Assembly: GCA_014860725.1 (NCBI GenBank)
Contig: JACZJD010000427.1
Coordinates: 1 to 6,575 of the forward strand
DNA length: 6,575 nt
Direction: 5' to 3'
Source of the DNA: Aquamicrobium sp.
GTDB lineage: Bacteria > Pseudomonadota > Alphaproteobacteria > Rhizobiales > Rhizobiaceae
Below are positions 1 through 6,575 of this stretch, piece after piece (the stretch's first letter is position 1; every line of letters begins with the position of its first letter). The translations under genes were made by a program, and so were the position numbers. The notes under the pieces were generated by a model. That model did not search any database and had not been told where the DNA came from. It was given only the letters and a program-made list of their open reading frames with translations.

Positions 1-1363
1 GCGCCGGCCTGCCCGGCGCGCCGGCCTGCTCCAGCTTCTCGCGGGTGGCGATCAGCGAGGAGACCGGATAGCCGATGCCCGAGGCCGCAAGCCCCGCCCT
101 GGCGAGCGCGGCGGGGTCGATGGCATTGCGCAGGTCGACGAAGACCGGCGCGGCGAGGCGGGCCGCGACCCGTGCGAGGTCGAGCTGCCGGAACTCGGCC
201 CATTCGGTCGCAAGCACCGCGCAGTGGGCGCCGGCGACGCATTCGTAGCCGTCCCGGGTGAAGGCGACGCCGGTGAGGAAACCGGCCGCGTTGTCCATGC
301 CCTGCGGATCGTAGACCCGGACCGAGGCGCCGGCCTGCTGCAGCACGGAGATCAGCGCGAGCGCGGGCGAATCGCGCATGTCGTCGGTGTTGGGCTTGAA
401 GGTGAGGCCGAGCACCGCCACCGTCTTGCCGCACACGTCGCCGCCCATCGCGTCGATGATGCGGTGGCCCATGGCGTATTTGCGCTCCTCGTTGACGAGG
501 ATCGCCTCCTCGACCAGCCGCAGCGACATGCCGAACTCGCGCGCCGTGGCGGCGAGCGCGGAGGTGTCCTTCGGGAAGCAGGAGCCGCCATAGCCGGGGC
601 CGGCGCGCAGGAACTCCTTGCCGATGCGGTGGTCGAGGCCGATGCCGTGGGCGACGTCGCGCACGTCGGCGGCGGCCGCCTCGCACAGGTCGGCGATCTC
701 GTTGATGAAGGTGATCTTGAGCGCGAGGAAGGCGTTGGCCGCGTATTTGGTGATCTCGGCGGCGATGCGCGTGGTGGCGACGAGCGGCGCGCCGGCGTCG
801 GTCAGCGGGCGGTAGAGCCGCATCAGCGCGATGCGCGCCTGCGGGTCCTGGGTGCCGATGACGATGCGGTCGGGGCGCAGGAAGTCGGAGAGCGCGCTGC
901 CCTCGCGCAGGAACTCGGGGTTGGACGCCACCGAGACATCGAGGCCGGGGCGGGCGGCGCGGATGATGCGCTCGACCGCGTCGCCCGTGCCGGGCGGCAC
1001 GGTCGATTTGGTCGCCACGACGATGCGGGCGTGGGCCTTGAGCGCGATCTCCTCGGCCACGGCGTGGACGGCGGACAGGTCCGCGCCGCCGCCGCGCGCC
1101 GGCGGCGTGCCGACCGCGATCATCACCAGATCGACGTCGGGGCCGAGGAAGGGCAGGCAGCGGGCGAAGGAGAGCCGCCCCGCCTGCCGGTTGCGCGCGA
1201 TCAGCTCCTCGAGGCCGGGCTCGTAGATCGGGCAATGCCCGGCCTCCAGCTCGGCGACCCTCGCCGGATTGGCGTCGACGCAGACGACCTCGTTGCCGAG
1301 CTCGGCGAAGCAGGCGCCGCTGACCAGACCGACATAACCGCACCCCACGACGATGACGCGCAT
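1..1363 (-). CDS. ugd: UDP-glucose 6-dehydrogenase, C-terminal end cut by the window edge
   Basis: This cytoplasmic enzyme oxidises UDP-glucose to UDP-glucuronate with two NAD+, supplying the substrate of the decarboxylase encoded just upstream. The frame is open from the ATG at 1363-1361 to the window edge, giving 454 visible codons. The N-terminal Rossmann domain begins with GCGYVG (residues 7-12) and an acidic residue ending the second strand (VCVD). The central helix reads NAFLALKITFINE. The catalytic thiol is Cys262 in GGSCFPKD, almost the same position as in characterised bacterial UGDs. The C-terminal UDP-binding domain carries GLTFKPNTDDMRDSPAL. A GGGGAG ribosome site (1370-1375) lies 6 nt before the ATG, and the UXS stop codon is only 23 nt upstream, so the two genes are almost certainly co-transcribed. 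The usual family end falls near Tyr432; at least 22 further residues, rich in Ala, Gly and Pro near the edge, follow without a stop. Family assignment is secure. Confidence 0.97.
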   Translation of the reverse strand, partial: MRVIVVGCGYVGLVSGACFAELGNEVVCVDANPARVAELEAGHCPIYEPGLEELIARNRQAGRLSFARCLPFLGPDVDLVMIAVGTPPARGGGADLSAVHAVAEEIALKAHARIVVATKSTVPPGTGDAVERIIRAARPGLDVSVASNPEFLREGSALSDFLRPDRIVIGTQDPQARIALMRLYRPLTDAGAPLVATTRIAAEITKYAANAFLALKITFINEIADLCEAAAADVRDVAHGIGLDHRIGKEFLRAGPGYGGSCFPKDTSALAATAREFGMSLRLVEEAILVNEERKYAMGHRIIDAMGGDVCGKTVAVLGLTFKPNTDDMRDSPALALISVLQQAGASVRVYDPQGMDNAAGFLTGVAFTRDGYECVAGAHCAVLATEWAEFRQLDLARVAARLAAPVFVDLRNAIDPAALARAGLAASGIGYPVSSLIATREKLEQAGAPGRPA

Positions 1364-1386
1364 GACAGGCTCCCCCGTTCCGTTCC

Positions 1387-2430
<1,044 letters not shown>

Positions 2431-2436
2431 CGGATT

Positions 2437-2442
2437 CTCCTT
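2437..2442 (-). promoter_or_regulatory. Ribosome binding site that fixes the uxs GTG start
   Basis: Read on the minus strand this is AAGGAG, a full anti-Shine-Dalgarno match, followed by a 6-nt spacer and GTG at 2430-2428. It is clearly better placed than the sites before the alternative TTG (2481) or ATG (2376), so it decides the start of the decarboxylase. It lies within the 47-nt gap after the CBM60-like gene. Confidence 0.75.
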
Positions 2443-2477
2443 CGTTGCCTGTCGCGCCGGAACGTCGACCTTTCGGA

Positions 2478-3065
2478 TCAACCTCCGGCGCCGCCTGCTT
2501 CGGGTTTTGCCGTGAGGCGGCTGCTGCGGGCGGCGGCGGCCGGCATCGGCCAGCCTCCCTCGGGCGGCTCGGCCACGGCCATGTGGTTCTGGTGGTAGAC
2601 GGGCAGCAGCCCGGCCTGGTAGTTGACCGTCTGCACCTCCTTGCCGTCCATCAGGCGCAGGTCGCCGGCGCGGACCGTCAGGCCGTTGACCTCGATCGAG
2701 CGGACGAACAGGTTGCGGTCGCGGCCCCAGCCCTCTTCCTTGAACCTGTCGTTGACGAGGACGATGCGCACCGGCGCGTCGGGCCTGAAGTCCCTGTCGG
2801 CAATCCGGAACTCGAAGCGTTCGAGATATTCGTCCGGGGCGGGACTGAAGAACAGACGGCCTTCCGTGACGGTGTCGATCGCCTTCGCAAGCTCTCCGCG
2901 GCCGATCACCTTGTCGCCGAGGCGTATTTCGAACGCCGGCTGGCCCTCATATGCTTCGCCTGCGGCGAGGAAGGATATCCGGGATTCTGCATGGGCGGCG
3001 GATGCCGCAAGCAGAGACGCGGCGCACGCGCAGACCAGGCGTGACTTTATATTTATCGCGTACAT
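2478..3065 (-). CDS. Secreted CBM60-like (calcium-dependent xylan-binding) domain protein
   Basis: This 195-aa protein is predicted to be exported and to bind a polysaccharide; no catalytic motif is visible. Residues 1-26 form a Sec signal peptide: basic n-region (KSR), hydrophobic Ala/Leu stretch, and AHA before the likely cleavage site. Residues about 42-132 resemble the CBM60 module: FEIRLGDKVIG, then RIVLVND (Asn105-Asp106), then RDRNLFV and SIEVNG (123-128). These match the family pattern of I-x-V-x-F-x-N-D followed by RD/RN-x-x-V-x-x-I-x-V-N-G, in which acidic residues bind calcium. The tail (about 140-195) is unassigned: a stretch with VYHQNHMAV and PPEGGWP, then Ala/Gly-rich sequence. 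The only cysteines (12 and 14) are in the signal, so the mature protein has no disulfide. AAAGGAAAGGG ends 8 nt before the ATG. It is the first gene of the operon with uxs and ugd, with the decarboxylase starting 47 nt after its stop. Binding xylan itself is unproven; a xylose-bearing surface polymer is equally possible. Confidence 0.8.
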   Translation of the reverse strand: MYAINIKSRLVCACAASLLAASAAHAESRISFLAAGEAYEGQPAFEIRLGDKVIGRGELAKAIDTVTEGRLFFSPAPDEYLERFEFRIADRDFRPDAPVRIVLVNDRFKEEGWGRDRNLFVRSIEVNGLTVRAGDLRLMDGKEVQTVNYQAGLLPVYHQNHMAVAEPPEGGWPMPAAAARSSRLTAKPEAGGAGG

Positions 3066-3110
3066 CTTTGAAACCCTTTCCTTTTGACCGGGTTATCAGA
3101 AGCATTCCAA

Positions 3111-3140
3111 ATGTTACTCGCAGTTGAAATATGATGTGAA
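3111..3140 (-). promoter_or_regulatory. Candidate sigma70-type promoter of the CBM60-like/uxs/ugd operon
   Basis: On the minus strand TTCACA (3140-3135, one mismatch to TTGACA) is separated by 18 nt from TAACAT (3116-3111, two mismatches to TATAAT). Transcription from here would give a leader of roughly 40 nt before the ATG at 3065, which contains the ribosome site. The match is moderate and the region is AT-rich, so chance is a real possibility. Confidence 0.35.
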
Positions 3141-3173
3141 GATTGCGTTTTATGATTAGTACGTTTTCATGAT

Positions 3174-3191
3174 CTAATCTTTTCGGATTAG
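3174..3191. repeat. Perfect inverted repeat CTAATC-N6-GATTAG, possible operator
   Basis: Arms CTAATC (3174-3179) and GATTAG (3186-3191) flank a 6-nt spacer. A further GATTAG lies at 3154-3159, so three copies of the half-site occur within 38 bp of the divergent control region. The spacing and position between two divergent genes suit a dimeric regulator site. No regulator can be assigned from sequence alone, and short AT-rich arms can arise by chance. Confidence 0.4.
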
Positions 3192-3256
3192 TTGCCTGCC
3201 GGGACGGCGGCGCTATCATGGCGCGCGGTATCGATTGCCGACGCATGGATGTCCCG

Positions 3257-4375
3257 ATGGAGCGACGCCGTTTCCTGCAAGTGCTGGCCGCCGCCTCGTT
3301 CGAGCCGTGGCTGGCGGCCTGCGCCGGCGACGACAAGCAGGCGGGCGAGCCGTTCGAGGAGGAGAAGGAGACCCAGCCGCTGGCGCAGGCGGCGCGGGCG
3401 AGCGCGCGCGAGTTCGGGGCCGCGGTCAACACCACCATGCTGCGCTCCCGCTCGCACGGCTACCGCACGGCGCTGAAGGAGTGTTCCTCGGTGACGCCGG
3501 AATGGTCGTTCAAGTGGGACCGGATGTGCCCGCGGCCCGGCCGCTACGATTTCGACGACGCCGACAGGATCGCCCGCTTCGCGCGCAGCGAACGCAAGCG
3601 CATGCGCGGCCACACGCTGTTGTGGCATCTCGGCATGCCCGCCTGGGCCGACGCGCTCTTGGCCGAGACGCGCGAATGGGGCCATGTGCGCAGCTATTTC
3701 CAGGCCGTGATGCCACGCTATGCCGACGTCATCGACGAGTGGGACGTGGTCAACGAGCCGATCGACCCGGCCGGTGACGGCAACGGCCTGCGGCGCAACC
3801 AGTTCCTGCGCGCCTTCGGCCCCGACTACATCGACTGGGCGTTCTGGACGGCGCGGGAGACCGCGCCCGGGGCGCGGCTGTTCCTCAACGAGTACGGGCT
3901 GGAATATGCCTCGTCCGAGGAGGGCCGCCGCCGCCTCGCCCTCCTCAGGCTGGTGGAGGGGCTGAAGAAGCGCGGCGTGCCGTTGCACGGCGTCGGCCTT
4001 CAGGCCCATCTCGACCTGCGCAAGGGCCGGATCTACACCGACGGCGTCTACGGGCTGCTGCGCGACCTGTCGGGCTTCGGCCTCCGCATCGCGATCACCG
4101 AGCTCGACGTGCGCGAGCAGGACCGCAAGATGGCGCTCAAGGCGCGCGACGCCGCGGTCGCCGACGAGGTCCGGCGCTATCTCGACGTCGTCCTCGATTT
4201 CGCCGCGGTGAAGTCGGTCTCGACATGGGGCCTGAGCGACCGCGATTCCTGGCTCGCCTACAAGGAGGGCGGCCGCCCCGACAATCGCGGCCTGCCCTAC
4301 GACCGCGAATGGCGGCGCAAGCCGATGCGGACGGCGATCGAGACCGCGTTCCGCAACGGGCGGCCGTTCTCGTGA
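3257..4375 (+). CDS. GH10-family glycoside hydrolase (endo-1,4-beta-xylanase family), Tat-exported putative lipoprotein
   Basis: GH10 enzymes are retaining endo-hydrolases, classically cutting beta-1,4-xylan. From the ATG at 3257 this is 372 aa: a leader plus one catalytic domain, without an attached binding module. The leader has a twin-arginine motif (RRRFLQ, residues 3-8) and a lipobox-like LAAC with Cys22, suggesting folded export and possible lipid anchoring; an internal Glu-Pro makes the h-region imperfect. GH10 hallmarks in order are TPEWSFKW (Lys86), RGHTLLWH (117-124), WDVVNEP with acid/base Glu167, GVGLQAHL (Gln249, His251), ITELDV with nucleophile Glu282, and WGLSDRDSW (Trp324, Trp332). 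The usual Asn of TPEN is Trp83 and the usual Gln of WHxQ is Gly126, both in the -2 subsite region. Upstream in-frame ATGs at 3218 and 3245 are possible. I prefer 3257 because it gives a compact Tat n-region and has a partial GGA site. It is divergent from the UDP-xylose operon, so trimming of a self-made polymer is plausible. Confidence 0.93.
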   Translation: MERRRFLQVLAAASFEPWLAACAGDDKQAGEPFEEEKETQPLAQAARASAREFGAAVNTTMLRSRSHGYRTALKECSSVTPEWSFKWDRMCPRPGRYDFDDADRIARFARSERKRMRGHTLLWHLGMPAWADALLAETREWGHVRSYFQAVMPRYADVIDEWDVVNEPIDPAGDGNGLRRNQFLRAFGPDYIDWAFWTARETAPGARLFLNEYGLEYASSEEGRRRLALLRLVEGLKKRGVPLHGVGLQAHLDLRKGRIYTDGVYGLLRDLSGFGLRIAITELDVREQDRKMALKARDAAVADEVRRYLDVVLDFAAVKSVSTWGLSDRDSWLAYKEGGRPDNRGLPYDREWRRKPMRTAIETAFRNGRPFS

Positions 4376-4544: not shown

Positions 4545-5339
4545 CTAGCTCGAGCCGCTGCGCGGCGTGCGCGCGTGGAGGTTGCGGGCAAGCTCGGAGT
4601 AGAGGCCGCGCGTGTCGGAGGAGATGCCCACCCCGAATTCGTTCATCAGTTGGGGCTCGCAGCGCTCGAAAAGATGCTGGAGCCGCGCAAGGTCGCCCTG
4701 CTCGGCGGCCTCGGTCATCAGCGTCTGGAATGCCTGCTCGTTGCAGGGATCGAGCGTCAGGAGCTTGCGGGCGCACGGTCCGCGCTCCGCGGGCGACAGC
4801 GCGGCCTCGTCCTGAAGGGCGGCGGTCAGCTTCTCGATGAACGGGCTGCGCAGGCGCTCGCGCTGCTCGGACAGCCATTCCTCGAACTCGACGCTGGAGC
4901 CGCCGATGTCGGCCAGGAGCTCGCCGCCATAGAGCTCGCAGGCCCTGGTCAGCGCGCCCTCCTCGTCGCTCTCGAGGGCGTCGAGGAAGTCGCGCAGGTC
5001 CCAGTCGACGCTCTCGGGCGTCAGGTAGACCAGGGTGAAGTTGGAGCCGATCAGCTGGAAGTTGTTCTCGTCCTGGAACCGCCGGATGCGCACGAGGCTC
5101 TGGCGGAGATTGGCGCTGGCCTTCTCAGGGTCCGCCTCGGGCCAGAAGAAGGACCCGAGCCGCTGGCGCGACATCATCATCCTTGCGCCGGAAAGCAGCA
5201 GATAGGCGGCTATGCGAAAGTAACTCGACGGTATGGCCGACTGGACGACTCCGTTGATTTCTATGCTGCAGACGCCGAGGGTGTTGAAGGACACCCGCGG
5301 TATCCGTTTTCGATCCGATGTGCCTGTCGCTCTATGCAT
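4545..5339 (-). CDS. Small BTAD/SARP-type transcriptional regulator
   Basis: This 264-aa protein has the two-part architecture of SARP-like activators: an N-terminal OmpR-like winged-helix DNA-binding domain followed by a helical bacterial transcriptional activator domain (BTAD). The winged helix spans about residues 15-107, with the signature FWPEADPEKASANLRQ (65-80) and a basic continuation (VRIRR). The BTAD starts near VDWDLRDFLDAL (111-122) and continues through YGGELLAD and FEEWLSEQRERLR to about residue 252. There is no AAA/NB-ARC, TPR array, cyclase or membrane domain after the BTAD, so this is the minimal form. The ATG at 5339 has a GGGAG 6 nt upstream, and a sigma70-like promoter lies at 5396-5423. 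It is convergent with the GH10 gene and close to the UDP-xylose operon. A role in activating the polysaccharide genes is a contextual guess; the domain assignment is firm. Confidence 0.9.
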   Translation of the reverse strand: MHRATGTSDRKRIPRVSFNTLGVCSIEINGVVQSAIPSSYFRIAAYLLLSGARMMMSRQRLGSFFWPEADPEKASANLRQSLVRIRRFQDENNFQLIGSNFTLVYLTPESVDWDLRDFLDALESDEEGALTRACELYGGELLADIGGSSVEFEEWLSEQRERLRSPFIEKLTAALQDEAALSPAERGPCARKLLTLDPCNEQAFQTLMTEAAEQGDLARLQHLFERCEPQLMNEFGVGISSDTRGLYSELARNLHARTPRSGSS

Positions 5340-5395
5340 GCCCCTCTCCCGATCCCGGTCTAAGGCACGCCCCCCTTCCCATACGGTAACAGATG

Positions 5396-5423
5396 ATTAT
5401 AAGCAATCCTGTTGAGATATCAA
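5396..5423 (-). promoter_or_regulatory. Strong sigma70-like promoter of the BTAD regulator gene
   Basis: On the minus strand TTGATA (5423-5418, 5 of 6 to consensus) and a perfect TATAAT (5401-5396) are separated by 16 nt. Predicted initiation near 5389 gives a leader of about 50 nt, with the GGGAG ribosome site just before the ATG at 5339. The near-consensus match, orientation and distance make this the best promoter in the window. Confidence 0.65.
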
Positions 5424-5550
5424 AGGAATTATCTTCACACTTCGGTGTAGATTGCAGAAACTAATTCGTTATAGTCCTGACATATTCTGGCTTTCCTCCA
5501 TCCTTTCAGTAGGACAAAGTCATCAATACTGACGCAATGGATATGATCGC

Positions 5551-5562
5551 GACAGTTCTGTC
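5551..5562. repeat. Perfect 12-bp palindrome GACAGTTCTGTC, possible operator
   Basis: Arms GACAG and CTGTC flank TT. It lies about 128 bp upstream of the BTAD promoter -35 element, so it could be an upstream activator site for a dimeric regulator. It is short and no binding protein can be named from sequence. Confidence 0.3.
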
Positions 5563-5602
5563 ATGATATTATATGTATTACTATATTTAAGATATATATG
5601 AA

Positions 5603-5642
5603 ACAATCACCAAGATTAATTATTCAATTAATCAATGATTGT
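5603..5642. repeat. Compound AT-rich inverted repeat (15 paired bases in 40)
   Basis: Inner arms GATTAATT (5614-5621) and AATTAATC (5626-5633) are perfectly complementary around a 4-nt loop. Outer arms ACAATCA (5603-5609) and TGATTGT (5636-5642) extend the dyad after a small asymmetric internal loop (4 nt versus 2 nt). On the minus strand it is followed by TTTCATATATAT, so it could form a weak AT-rich terminator for the leftward luxR-type/HEPN-like transcript. Alternatively it is a double operator. The stem is too AT-rich for a standard intrinsic terminator. Confidence 0.45.
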
Positions 5643-5677
5643 AACGGCTTCGTGACATCATATCATGAATTCTTCGC

Positions 5678-5742
5678 CATCCCGCTCCCCGCTGACTGGT
5701 TGCCCGATCGTGTCGATTCATGTTTCATTTCGGGAGCGGATG
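5678..5742. repeat. Bulged GC-rich inverted repeat with a 42-nt loop
   Basis: CATCCCGCTCCC (5678-5689) pairs with GGGAGCGGATG (5732-5742) over 11 bp with one bulged C. The loop contains a small ATCG-TGT-CGAT hairpin (5707-5717). It would lie in the 3' untranslated part of the leftward transcript ending at 5809. It has no T-run after it, so it may be a stabilising or processing structure, or chance. Confidence 0.25.
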
Positions 5743-5808
5743 CCGGCAAACTGACGGCGACGGAGTCTTGTCTCGTGCTCCCTGCAATCCCCCCGAAGAT
5801 ACCGCGCT

Positions 5809-6288
5809 TCAGTATCTGATATTCTTCTCTCTTATGAAATCGAATATAGACCGATTTATCATGATGATGTCGGATGTGGACTCGTCTATCCGCCCGATCT
5901 CCGCGTCGTCGATGGCCTCGATCTTCCCGTATTTGAGGGTATCGCCGTAATCCGCGATCCGCAGAAGCTGCGTCGCCTCGATCTCTCCATTCTCGTCGAA
6001 GGAGTAGATGCAGTGGTTGTATTTGTTGCGCACGCGGGCGGCCGTCTTCATCCTGGCGACGATGGGCGCGAGCCGCGCCCGGATCTCCGGATCGGTCGAC
6101 TCCAGCTTGAGCAGGCGCTCGATGAAGTCGAGCCGCGCCCTCGACGTGTTGAGCGTCAGGAAGGTGACGATCGCCACGTCCTTTCCCGAGCGCATCAGGA
6201 AGGCCATCAGGTAGATCAGCAGGCTTTCGGTGTTCGTCCAGGCGTAGTTGAGCTTGCCGATCAGAAGCAGGAGATCCTCGCTGCGCAT
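5809..6288 (-). CDS. Uncharacterised protein with a HEPN-like RNxxxH motif
   Basis: I do not recognise a named family for this 159-aa, probably cytoplasmic, mainly helical protein. Its layout resembles a broad group of uncharacterised small bacterial proteins. An N-terminal helix with Trp-x-x-Thr-Glu (YAWTNTES, 15-22) leads into a hydrophobic helix (LLIYLMAFLM), then a basic helical stretch, then RNKYNHCIY (87-95). The last fits the R-x4-H motif of HEPN-type domains, some of which are ribonucleases; Tyr95 lies three residues after the His. No classical partner nucleotidyltransferase is adjacent, so a toxin role is not supported by context. The ATG is 11 nt after the stop of the LuxR-type gene, with a modest AGG upstream, so it is probably translated from the same transcript. 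The last 25 or so codons (rich in Ile, Asn, Phe, Lys) are AT-rich, unlike the rest of the gene. The coding call is good; the functional hint is weak. Confidence 0.82.
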   Translation of the reverse strand: MRSEDLLLLIGKLNYAWTNTESLLIYLMAFLMRSGKDVAIVTFLTLNTSRARLDFIERLLKLESTDPEIRARLAPIVARMKTAARVRNKYNHCIYSFDENGEIEATQLLRIADYGDTLKYGKIEAIDDAEIGRIDESTSDIIMINRSIFDFIREKNIRY

Positions 6289-6299
6289 GACGCGCCTGC

Positions 6300-6575
6300 T
6301 TACCAGGCGGCCGCCGCACCGGCGCCGTTCGCGTCGGGCGCCTTGATCGGCGGGGCCATGCCGAGCGCCGTCATCTGGCCCTTGCGGTAGGTGGCCGCGG
6401 CCTGGGTCCGGTTGCTGACGCGCAGCTTCGCCAGGAGGTTGTGGACGTGGACCTTCACCGTATGCTCGGACAGCGACATCTTGTGTGCGATGAGCTTGTT
6501 CTGGTGGCCTTCCGACAGCAGCTCGAGGATTTCCTGCTCGCGGGCGGTGAGCGAGGACAGCGCCGCCGGCGGCGG
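6300..6575 (-). CDS. LuxR/NarL-family response regulator, C-terminal HTH part only (cut by window edge)
   Basis: The 91 visible residues end at a TAA at 6302-6300. They contain a complete GerE/LuxR-type helix-turn-helix: LTAREQEILELLSEGHQNK, IAHKMSLSEHTVKVHVHNLL and AKLRVSNRTQAA, with the conserved E-x-TVK-x-H recognition segment and KL-x-V-x-NRTQA dimer helix. A tail of about 30 residues rich in Ala, Gly and Pro ends in Trp. The N-terminal sensory part is outside the window, so phosphoreceiver (NarL/FixJ type) versus autoinducer-binding cannot be decided. The sequence before the HTH (PPPAALSS) looks like an interdomain linker. It is the upstream partner of the HEPN-like gene, 11 nt apart. 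It could regulate the polysaccharide genes to its left, but that is only a contextual suggestion. Confidence 0.93.
   Translation of the reverse strand, partial: PPPAALSSLTAREQEILELLSEGHQNKLIAHKMSLSEHTVKVHVHNLLAKLRVSNRTQAAATYRKGQMTALGMAPPIKAPDANGAGAAAAW

Follow-up and report, generated by a model that had tools for sequence, protein, structure and literature searches.

A probable surface-polysaccharide locus of Hyphomicrobiales that joins UDP-xylose synthesis to GH10 and CBM60-like proteins

The subject of this work is a stretch of 6,575 nucleotides from Aquamicrobium sp. (contig JACZJD010000427.1), hereafter the window, where genes for nucleotide-sugar synthesis lie beside a GH10 hydrolase gene and a gene for a CBM60-like protein. 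Seven reading frames are supported: UGD, UXS, the CBM60-like protein, GH10, a BTAD-type regulator, the unnamed ORF159 and the end of a LuxR-type regulator (Table 1). All are on the minus strand except GH10. The original prediction read a leftward series made of the CBM60-like gene, UXS and UGD, separated by 47 and 23 nt, with a GH10-family gene diverging from the same control region. Both features are confirmed, the first with UXS beginning at GTG 2430; this start is favoured because similarity to a related locus, L001, begins there, at residue 18 of the TTG frame. With ATG 2376 as the start, the gap between the CBM60-like gene and UXS would be 101 nt. The BTAD regulator, ORF159 and the LuxR-type end, absent from that prediction, are members of the same conserved cluster. 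As the order of the genes recurs in relatives, their arrangement is more than chance. A search of the window against Rfam gave no match.

Table 1. Genes and control region of the window (positions on the forward strand)
Feature	Position	Strand	Remarks
UGD, UDP-glucose 6-dehydrogenase-type nucleotide-sugar dehydrogenase (predicted)	2..1363	-	Open at window edge; PF03721/PF00984/PF03720
UXS, UDP-glucuronate decarboxylase (UDP-xylose synthase, predicted)	1387..2430	-	GTG start favoured by homology
Stand-alone CBM60-like exported protein, 195 aa	2478..3065	-	PF16841
Shared divergent control region	3066..3244	.	AT-richer than surroundings; promoter-like site on each strand
GH10 hydrolase, twin-Arg and lipobox-like signal	3245..4375	+	PF00331, E 1.8e-73
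BTAD-domain regulator	4545..5339	-	PF03704, E 2.1e-8; in 10/10 cluster loci
ORF159, unnamed conserved 159-aa cluster protein	5809..6288	-	52-90% identity in L001-L006
LuxR-type (NarL/CsgD-like helix-turn-helix) regulator, C-terminal part	6300..6575	-	Cut by window edge; PF00196, E 2.3e-20

Scanning of species genomes with an alignment of CBM60-like proteins gave 26 loci, from Hyphomicrobiales/Rhizobiales bacteria, Devosia, Pelagibacterium and Arsenicitalea. By tblastn, all seven window genes are clustered in six of these (L001-L006) and not in the other 20. Together with L047-L050, these six make up the ten CBM60-bearing loci of the cluster. In L001 the series continues past UGD with a GT2 glycosyltransferase (13132-14652), an SDR protein (14645-15784) and a second, convergent GH10 (15790-16899). 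The other side of the L001 cluster bears a type I secretion ATPase, cut by the contig end, whose closest model is PrtD (490 bits for a cut-off of 510), and nearby genes for proteins of 671 and 465 aa, neither of which matches Pfam or NCBIfam; serine, asparagine and aspartate amount to 57% of the residues of the latter. GT2, SDR, LuxR, ORF159, BTAD and the 465-aa-type protein are each present in 10/10 of the CBM60 loci. UXS is found in nine (not in L048), UGD in nine (not in L049), and so is the divergent GH10, L048 having the convergent one instead; the 671-aa-type protein and the transporter are also found in nine, the stretch available for L050 stopping before them. Genomes whose locus lacks UXS or UGD carry a copy elsewhere (G1018, G1121), and both genes were found in 5/5 genomes checked. 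The neighbourhood proposed by the original prediction is thus conserved and persists through rearrangement, L002 having the same genes in another order. A further locus, L051 (genome G1068), looks decayed or mis-assembled: its GT2 has one in-frame TGA, its CBM60-like gene and second GH10 are only fragments, and it has no match to the divergent GH10.

The GT2 protein, which directly adjoins UGD or UXS in relatives, is of the polysaccharide-synthase type. It has the DxD, ED and QxxRW motifs together with membrane helices, as found in synthases of exopolysaccharides, which suggests that it is processive. In L001 it comprises 506 aa and, among Pfam families, matches PF13632 and PF13641 only. Its distribution follows that of the cluster's CBM60-like protein. 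In a family sample of 136 genomes around G004 (Devosia indica, the genome of L004), 11 have a GT2 match at 1e-60 or better and 39 a CBM60-like match at 1e-5. The latter comprise nine at more than 200 bits, a cut chosen after seeing the gap in scores, the fragment of G1068, and 29 at 178 bits or less that have no GT2 match. All nine high-scoring genomes are among the 11 with GT2, the two matches being 1252-2651 bp apart. The other two GT2 genomes are G1068, with its CBM60 fragment and broken second GH10, and G1064, where no CBM60 match was found and UXS begins at the contig start. The hypergeometric value of this co-occurrence, 1.6e-12, overstates the case because the genomes are related. More widely GT2 is rare: 4/297 genomes in an order sample and 3/385 in a class sample (both at 1e-80), and 3/398 in a phylum sample (1e-60). 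Every one of these counts includes the centre genome, and the class and phylum samples share two further genomes.

Both nucleotide-sugar enzymes are recognizable by family. UGD matches TIGR03026, the NDP-sugar dehydrogenase subfamily model, at 413 bits (cut-off 189.8), scores below the cut-offs of the UGD-specific equivalog models, and has GGSCFPKD as its active-site stretch, with the cysteine in place; its substrate is predicted from the family. For UXS, solved structures of UDP-glucuronate decarboxylase 1 (UXS1) match at E 4e-108, and YDEGK stands for the YxxxK motif; the corresponding activity is predicted by homology, while among the NCBIfam models listed none reached its cut-off. The pair would convert UDP-glucose to UDP-glucuronate and UDP-xylose. 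Comparison of the whole window with plasmid DNA matched mostly pieces of UGD and UXS (best 20 of 90 records). One such match, in Azospirillum, is a UXS-UGD pair lying amid rhamnose genes and type I secretion genes, with GH10 not seen in that stretch.

The CBM60-like protein matches PF16841 at 35.6 bits (cut-off 28.2, E 1.3e-8). Its N-terminus is, by eye, hydrophobic and ends in AHA. The predicted fold is that of vCBM60 (2xfd, 2xhh), from which the protein differs in its sequence (18% identity), in being stand-alone and exported, and in an extra conserved C-terminal stretch; calcium-dependent binding of a beta-glycan, as expected of CBM60, is putative. Database relatives number 29 at 1e-3, and E37, N105 and N118 are invariant in a 29-row alignment. 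No plasmid matched the protein, and the alignment profile found no match among solved structures; the polyubiquitin chains returned by the sequence search of solved structures were noise, without any single significant stretch. The original prediction knew of no description of a stand-alone CBM60-like protein in such an operon, and our literature search, with many subscription papers outside its reach, likewise found no publication, among those listed, tying CBM60 to exopolysaccharide synthesis. A CBM60-like protein need not be the sign of a polysaccharide locus, as the 20 of 26 loci without the cluster make clear; among these L024 has UXS some 9 kb away, L026 has a weak LuxR helix-turn-helix match, and several are on short contigs. 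A second, longer CBM60-like group occurs in Devosia-type genomes (L007, L012, L019, L025, L026), beside genes that resemble CobS, BolA and AroB/AroK, by eye from protein starts; some of the frames read around the cluster-less loci (L007, L019 and others) are likely antisense.

The window GH10 matches PF00331 at 248 bits, with an earlier ATG possible at 3218. Fourteen GH10 domains were compared, the window's included (the L051 fragment was dropped and the domain of L038 left out), and all keep both catalytic glutamates, as befits the family. At the position of the -2 subsite where 6/6 solved GH10 chains with displayed alignments have asparagine, ten have tryptophan, the window among them, and four isoleucine. 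None of the 14 retains this asparagine, which we take to be a trait of classical GH10 xylanases rather than a formal mark of the family. The N-terminus of the window protein carries a twin-arginine stretch, RRRFL, and a lipobox-like LAAC. Since both signals occur in 8/11 divergent copies (window, L001, L003-L005, L047, L049 and L050; L002 is without such a cysteine, and the GH10 starts of L006 and L027 were not counted), the enzyme looks cell-bound.

Upstream of the two divergent genes, the 179-nt control region falls in a stretch of G+C content 0.56 (2751-3250), and two promoter-like sites, one per strand, occur in 2900-3400 where 0.3 are expected; these are consensus matches only. ORF159 has no Pfam match above cut-off. 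For the LuxR-type end the highest-ranking NCBIfam models, NarL and CsgD, score far short of their cut-offs.

Taken together, the genes present, their conservation and co-occurrence, the folds predicted and the catalytic motifs support a model in which the window quite probably forms the middle of a conserved locus in Hyphomicrobiales for the synthase-dependent production of a surface polysaccharide, with GH10 and the CBM60-like protein trimming or holding the polymer. The synthase, whose fold is akin to those of cellulose and hyaluronan synthases and whose gene is expected just past the window, would polymerize and export a chain made from the nucleotide sugars that UGD and UXS provide, one sugar being supplied or altered by the epimerase-like SDR. 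The exported CBM60-like protein might then bind the polymer during or after its synthesis, and trimming or release might fall to one or more GH10 enzymes of the envelope, as to BcsZ and AlgL in other systems. LuxR- and BTAD-type regulators would control the locus, and the repeat proteins linked to type I secretion probably join the same extracellular matrix. The original prediction of a locus that builds and remodels a surface polymer was thus right in outline, with a synthase gene and strong conservation behind it; sugar chemistry, binding, cleavage and the export route remain predicted. Its expectation of assembly genes nearby is borne out by the synthase-type GT2 beside UGD or UXS in relatives and not by the Wzx/Wzy/Wza/Wzc families, none of which appears among the L001 proteins scanned, the other loci not having been scanned throughout. 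If the model holds, genes labelled xylanase or xylan-binding in genomes of this kind may serve polymer synthesis rather than plant digestion, which bears on the use of counts of these genes as evidence of lignocellulose use.

Several observations weigh against this model. Beside the window's own UGD we can only infer the GT2, because the sequence beyond the window edges was not readable. The GT2 resembles cellulose synthase weakly by sequence (E 2e-4; CelA 23.5 bits for a cut-off of 699), and the 20 kb read of L037 contain GT2 and SDR with no match to UXS, CBM60 or GH10. The cluster itself is incomplete at L048, without UXS and the divergent GH10, and at L049, without UGD. In the family sample, 29/39 genomes with a CBM60-like match have no GT2 at 1e-60, so that a CBM60-like protein alone does not indicate polysaccharide synthesis. 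Families like BcsB or BcsC, TPR proteins or porins are absent from the proteins scanned in L001, the only locus scanned for them. Finally, the altered -2 position of GH10 argues against plain xylan as the substrate.

The alternative that survives best, which we regard as possible and still rather unlikely, is that the cluster comprises two neighbouring systems, an operon for a polysaccharide synthase and a type I secretion system independent of it, which share only their place and their regulators. In L027 and L038, GT2, SDR, UXS and a GH10 domain occur while the repeat proteins and the cluster-type CBM60 are missing (the L038 domain being no more than a partial match within a protein of 714 aa). 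Yet the two blocks stand together in the ten CBM60 loci, with LuxR, ORF159, BTAD and the 465-aa-type protein throughout.

A bolder version of the synthase model, which we hold doubtful, supposes that the bacterial synthase is dedicated to a xylan-like polymer, with a xylose backbone that may be decorated, and is fed by the locus's own supply of UDP-xylose. GH10 with its remodelled -2 subsite would then edit the chain, and the CBM60-like protein would tether it to the cell or to the type-I-secreted repeat proteins. Given that subsite change and an SDR of epimerase-like type, polymers of arabinose, of uronate or of mixed composition are conceivable too. Were this version true, a bacterium would carry out and control plant hemicellulose chemistry, with 'xylanase' and 'xylan-binding' parts in the service of biosynthesis. 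If the synthase model as such is right, the locus is a compact and testable candidate for the synthesis of a bacterial polymer from UDP-xylose, its one synthase gene offering a genetic handle in named Devosia and Pelagibacterium strains such as D. subaequoris DSM 23447 (L005) and P. lacus (L002).

More improbable is a variant of the APS (arabinose polymer) pathway of Sinorhizobium meliloti, with UDP-xylose epimerized and then polymerized. The gene order of that operon is described in PMC7902896, and its regulator is named CuxR in print. We assigned the region on pSymB by position, the record being unannotated, and took the GT2 found there as apsS. As in the cluster, a UDP-xylose synthase (62% identical in the two UXS copies) stands beside a GT2 of family PF13632 and a second SDR. 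Against a common identity, which would imply an orthologous apsS and uxe, the pSymB GT2 has no tblastn match to that of L001 at 1e-4, the second SDRs are 26% alike, the gene that follows on pSymB is of the DUF995 type, and no GH10, CBM60 or UGD match occurs in the region fetched. Least probable of all is the scavenging of plant xylan by GH10 and CBM60, with UXS and UGD as mere neighbours serving lipopolysaccharide or other glycans: the Pfam names are classically those of xylan degradation, L004 has a sugar ABC transporter further downstream and an FGGY-type carbohydrate kinase adjoins the convergent GH10 of L027, yet the conserved partners are the synthase and nucleotide-sugar genes (9/9), GH10 looks cell-bound, and no xylose-catabolic family is present among the L001 proteins scanned.

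Compared with known systems, the synthase-dependent locus proposed here departs from those of the BcsA cellulose or hyaluronan synthase type in that its GT2 has 506 aa with no PilZ match in L001, its hydrolase is a GH10, UDP-xylose synthesis is built in and type I secretion proteins belong to the cluster. Some homologues of the GT2 bear the database name glycosyltransferase XagB, a likeness by name alone. The closest published idea that we encountered is the stalk cluster sfz of Zetaproteobacteria, which joins a GT2 with the GH10 protein Sfz4 (PMC8250860); compared by description only, it has a BcsB-like protein, and UXS, UGD and CBM60 are not mentioned in the part of the article available. 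Loci of Rhizobium leguminosarum (pRlBT01b) and Methylosinus (pMSC49c) carry a gene annotated as endo-1,4-beta-xylanase next to genes for glycosyltransferases and a flippase; their assembly is of the flippase type, and no UXS-UGD block is annotated in the stretches viewed. These loci and Sfz4 lend substance to the earlier claim that a GH10 acting on a self-made polymer has precedent. The example then given, PssW, was not confirmed: the passages on gene order seen in PMC9961541 do not mention GH10 or xylanase.

Some further features of the cluster deserve mention. At L001:1865-5472, and at the matching places of L002-L006 and L047-L051, two repeat proteins without Pfam families lie beside the type I secretion genes. 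One L001 protein has five GxNxxxN and five Q-x-N...D-x-D motifs (shuffle means 0.1 and 0.5) and the other 18 NDNS-type repeats (shuffle mean 3.5), a pattern weaker in L002 (4, shuffle mean 0.8); these motifs were picked after reading the sequences. The RTX motif GGxGxD shows no excess in six repeat-protein sequences. Of the 34 relatives of the larger protein, none carries a precomputed Pfam domain. Within the window, the interval between the BTAD gene and ORF159 (5340-5808) has a G+C content of 0.44-0.46 in 500-base windows, compared with 0.65-0.70 further out, and holds a pair of 12-nt inverted repeats separated by 84 nt. Proteins of the GGDEF-EAL type directly adjoin the cluster at L003:16130-19894 and L027:7384-9120, a possible link to cyclic di-GMP.
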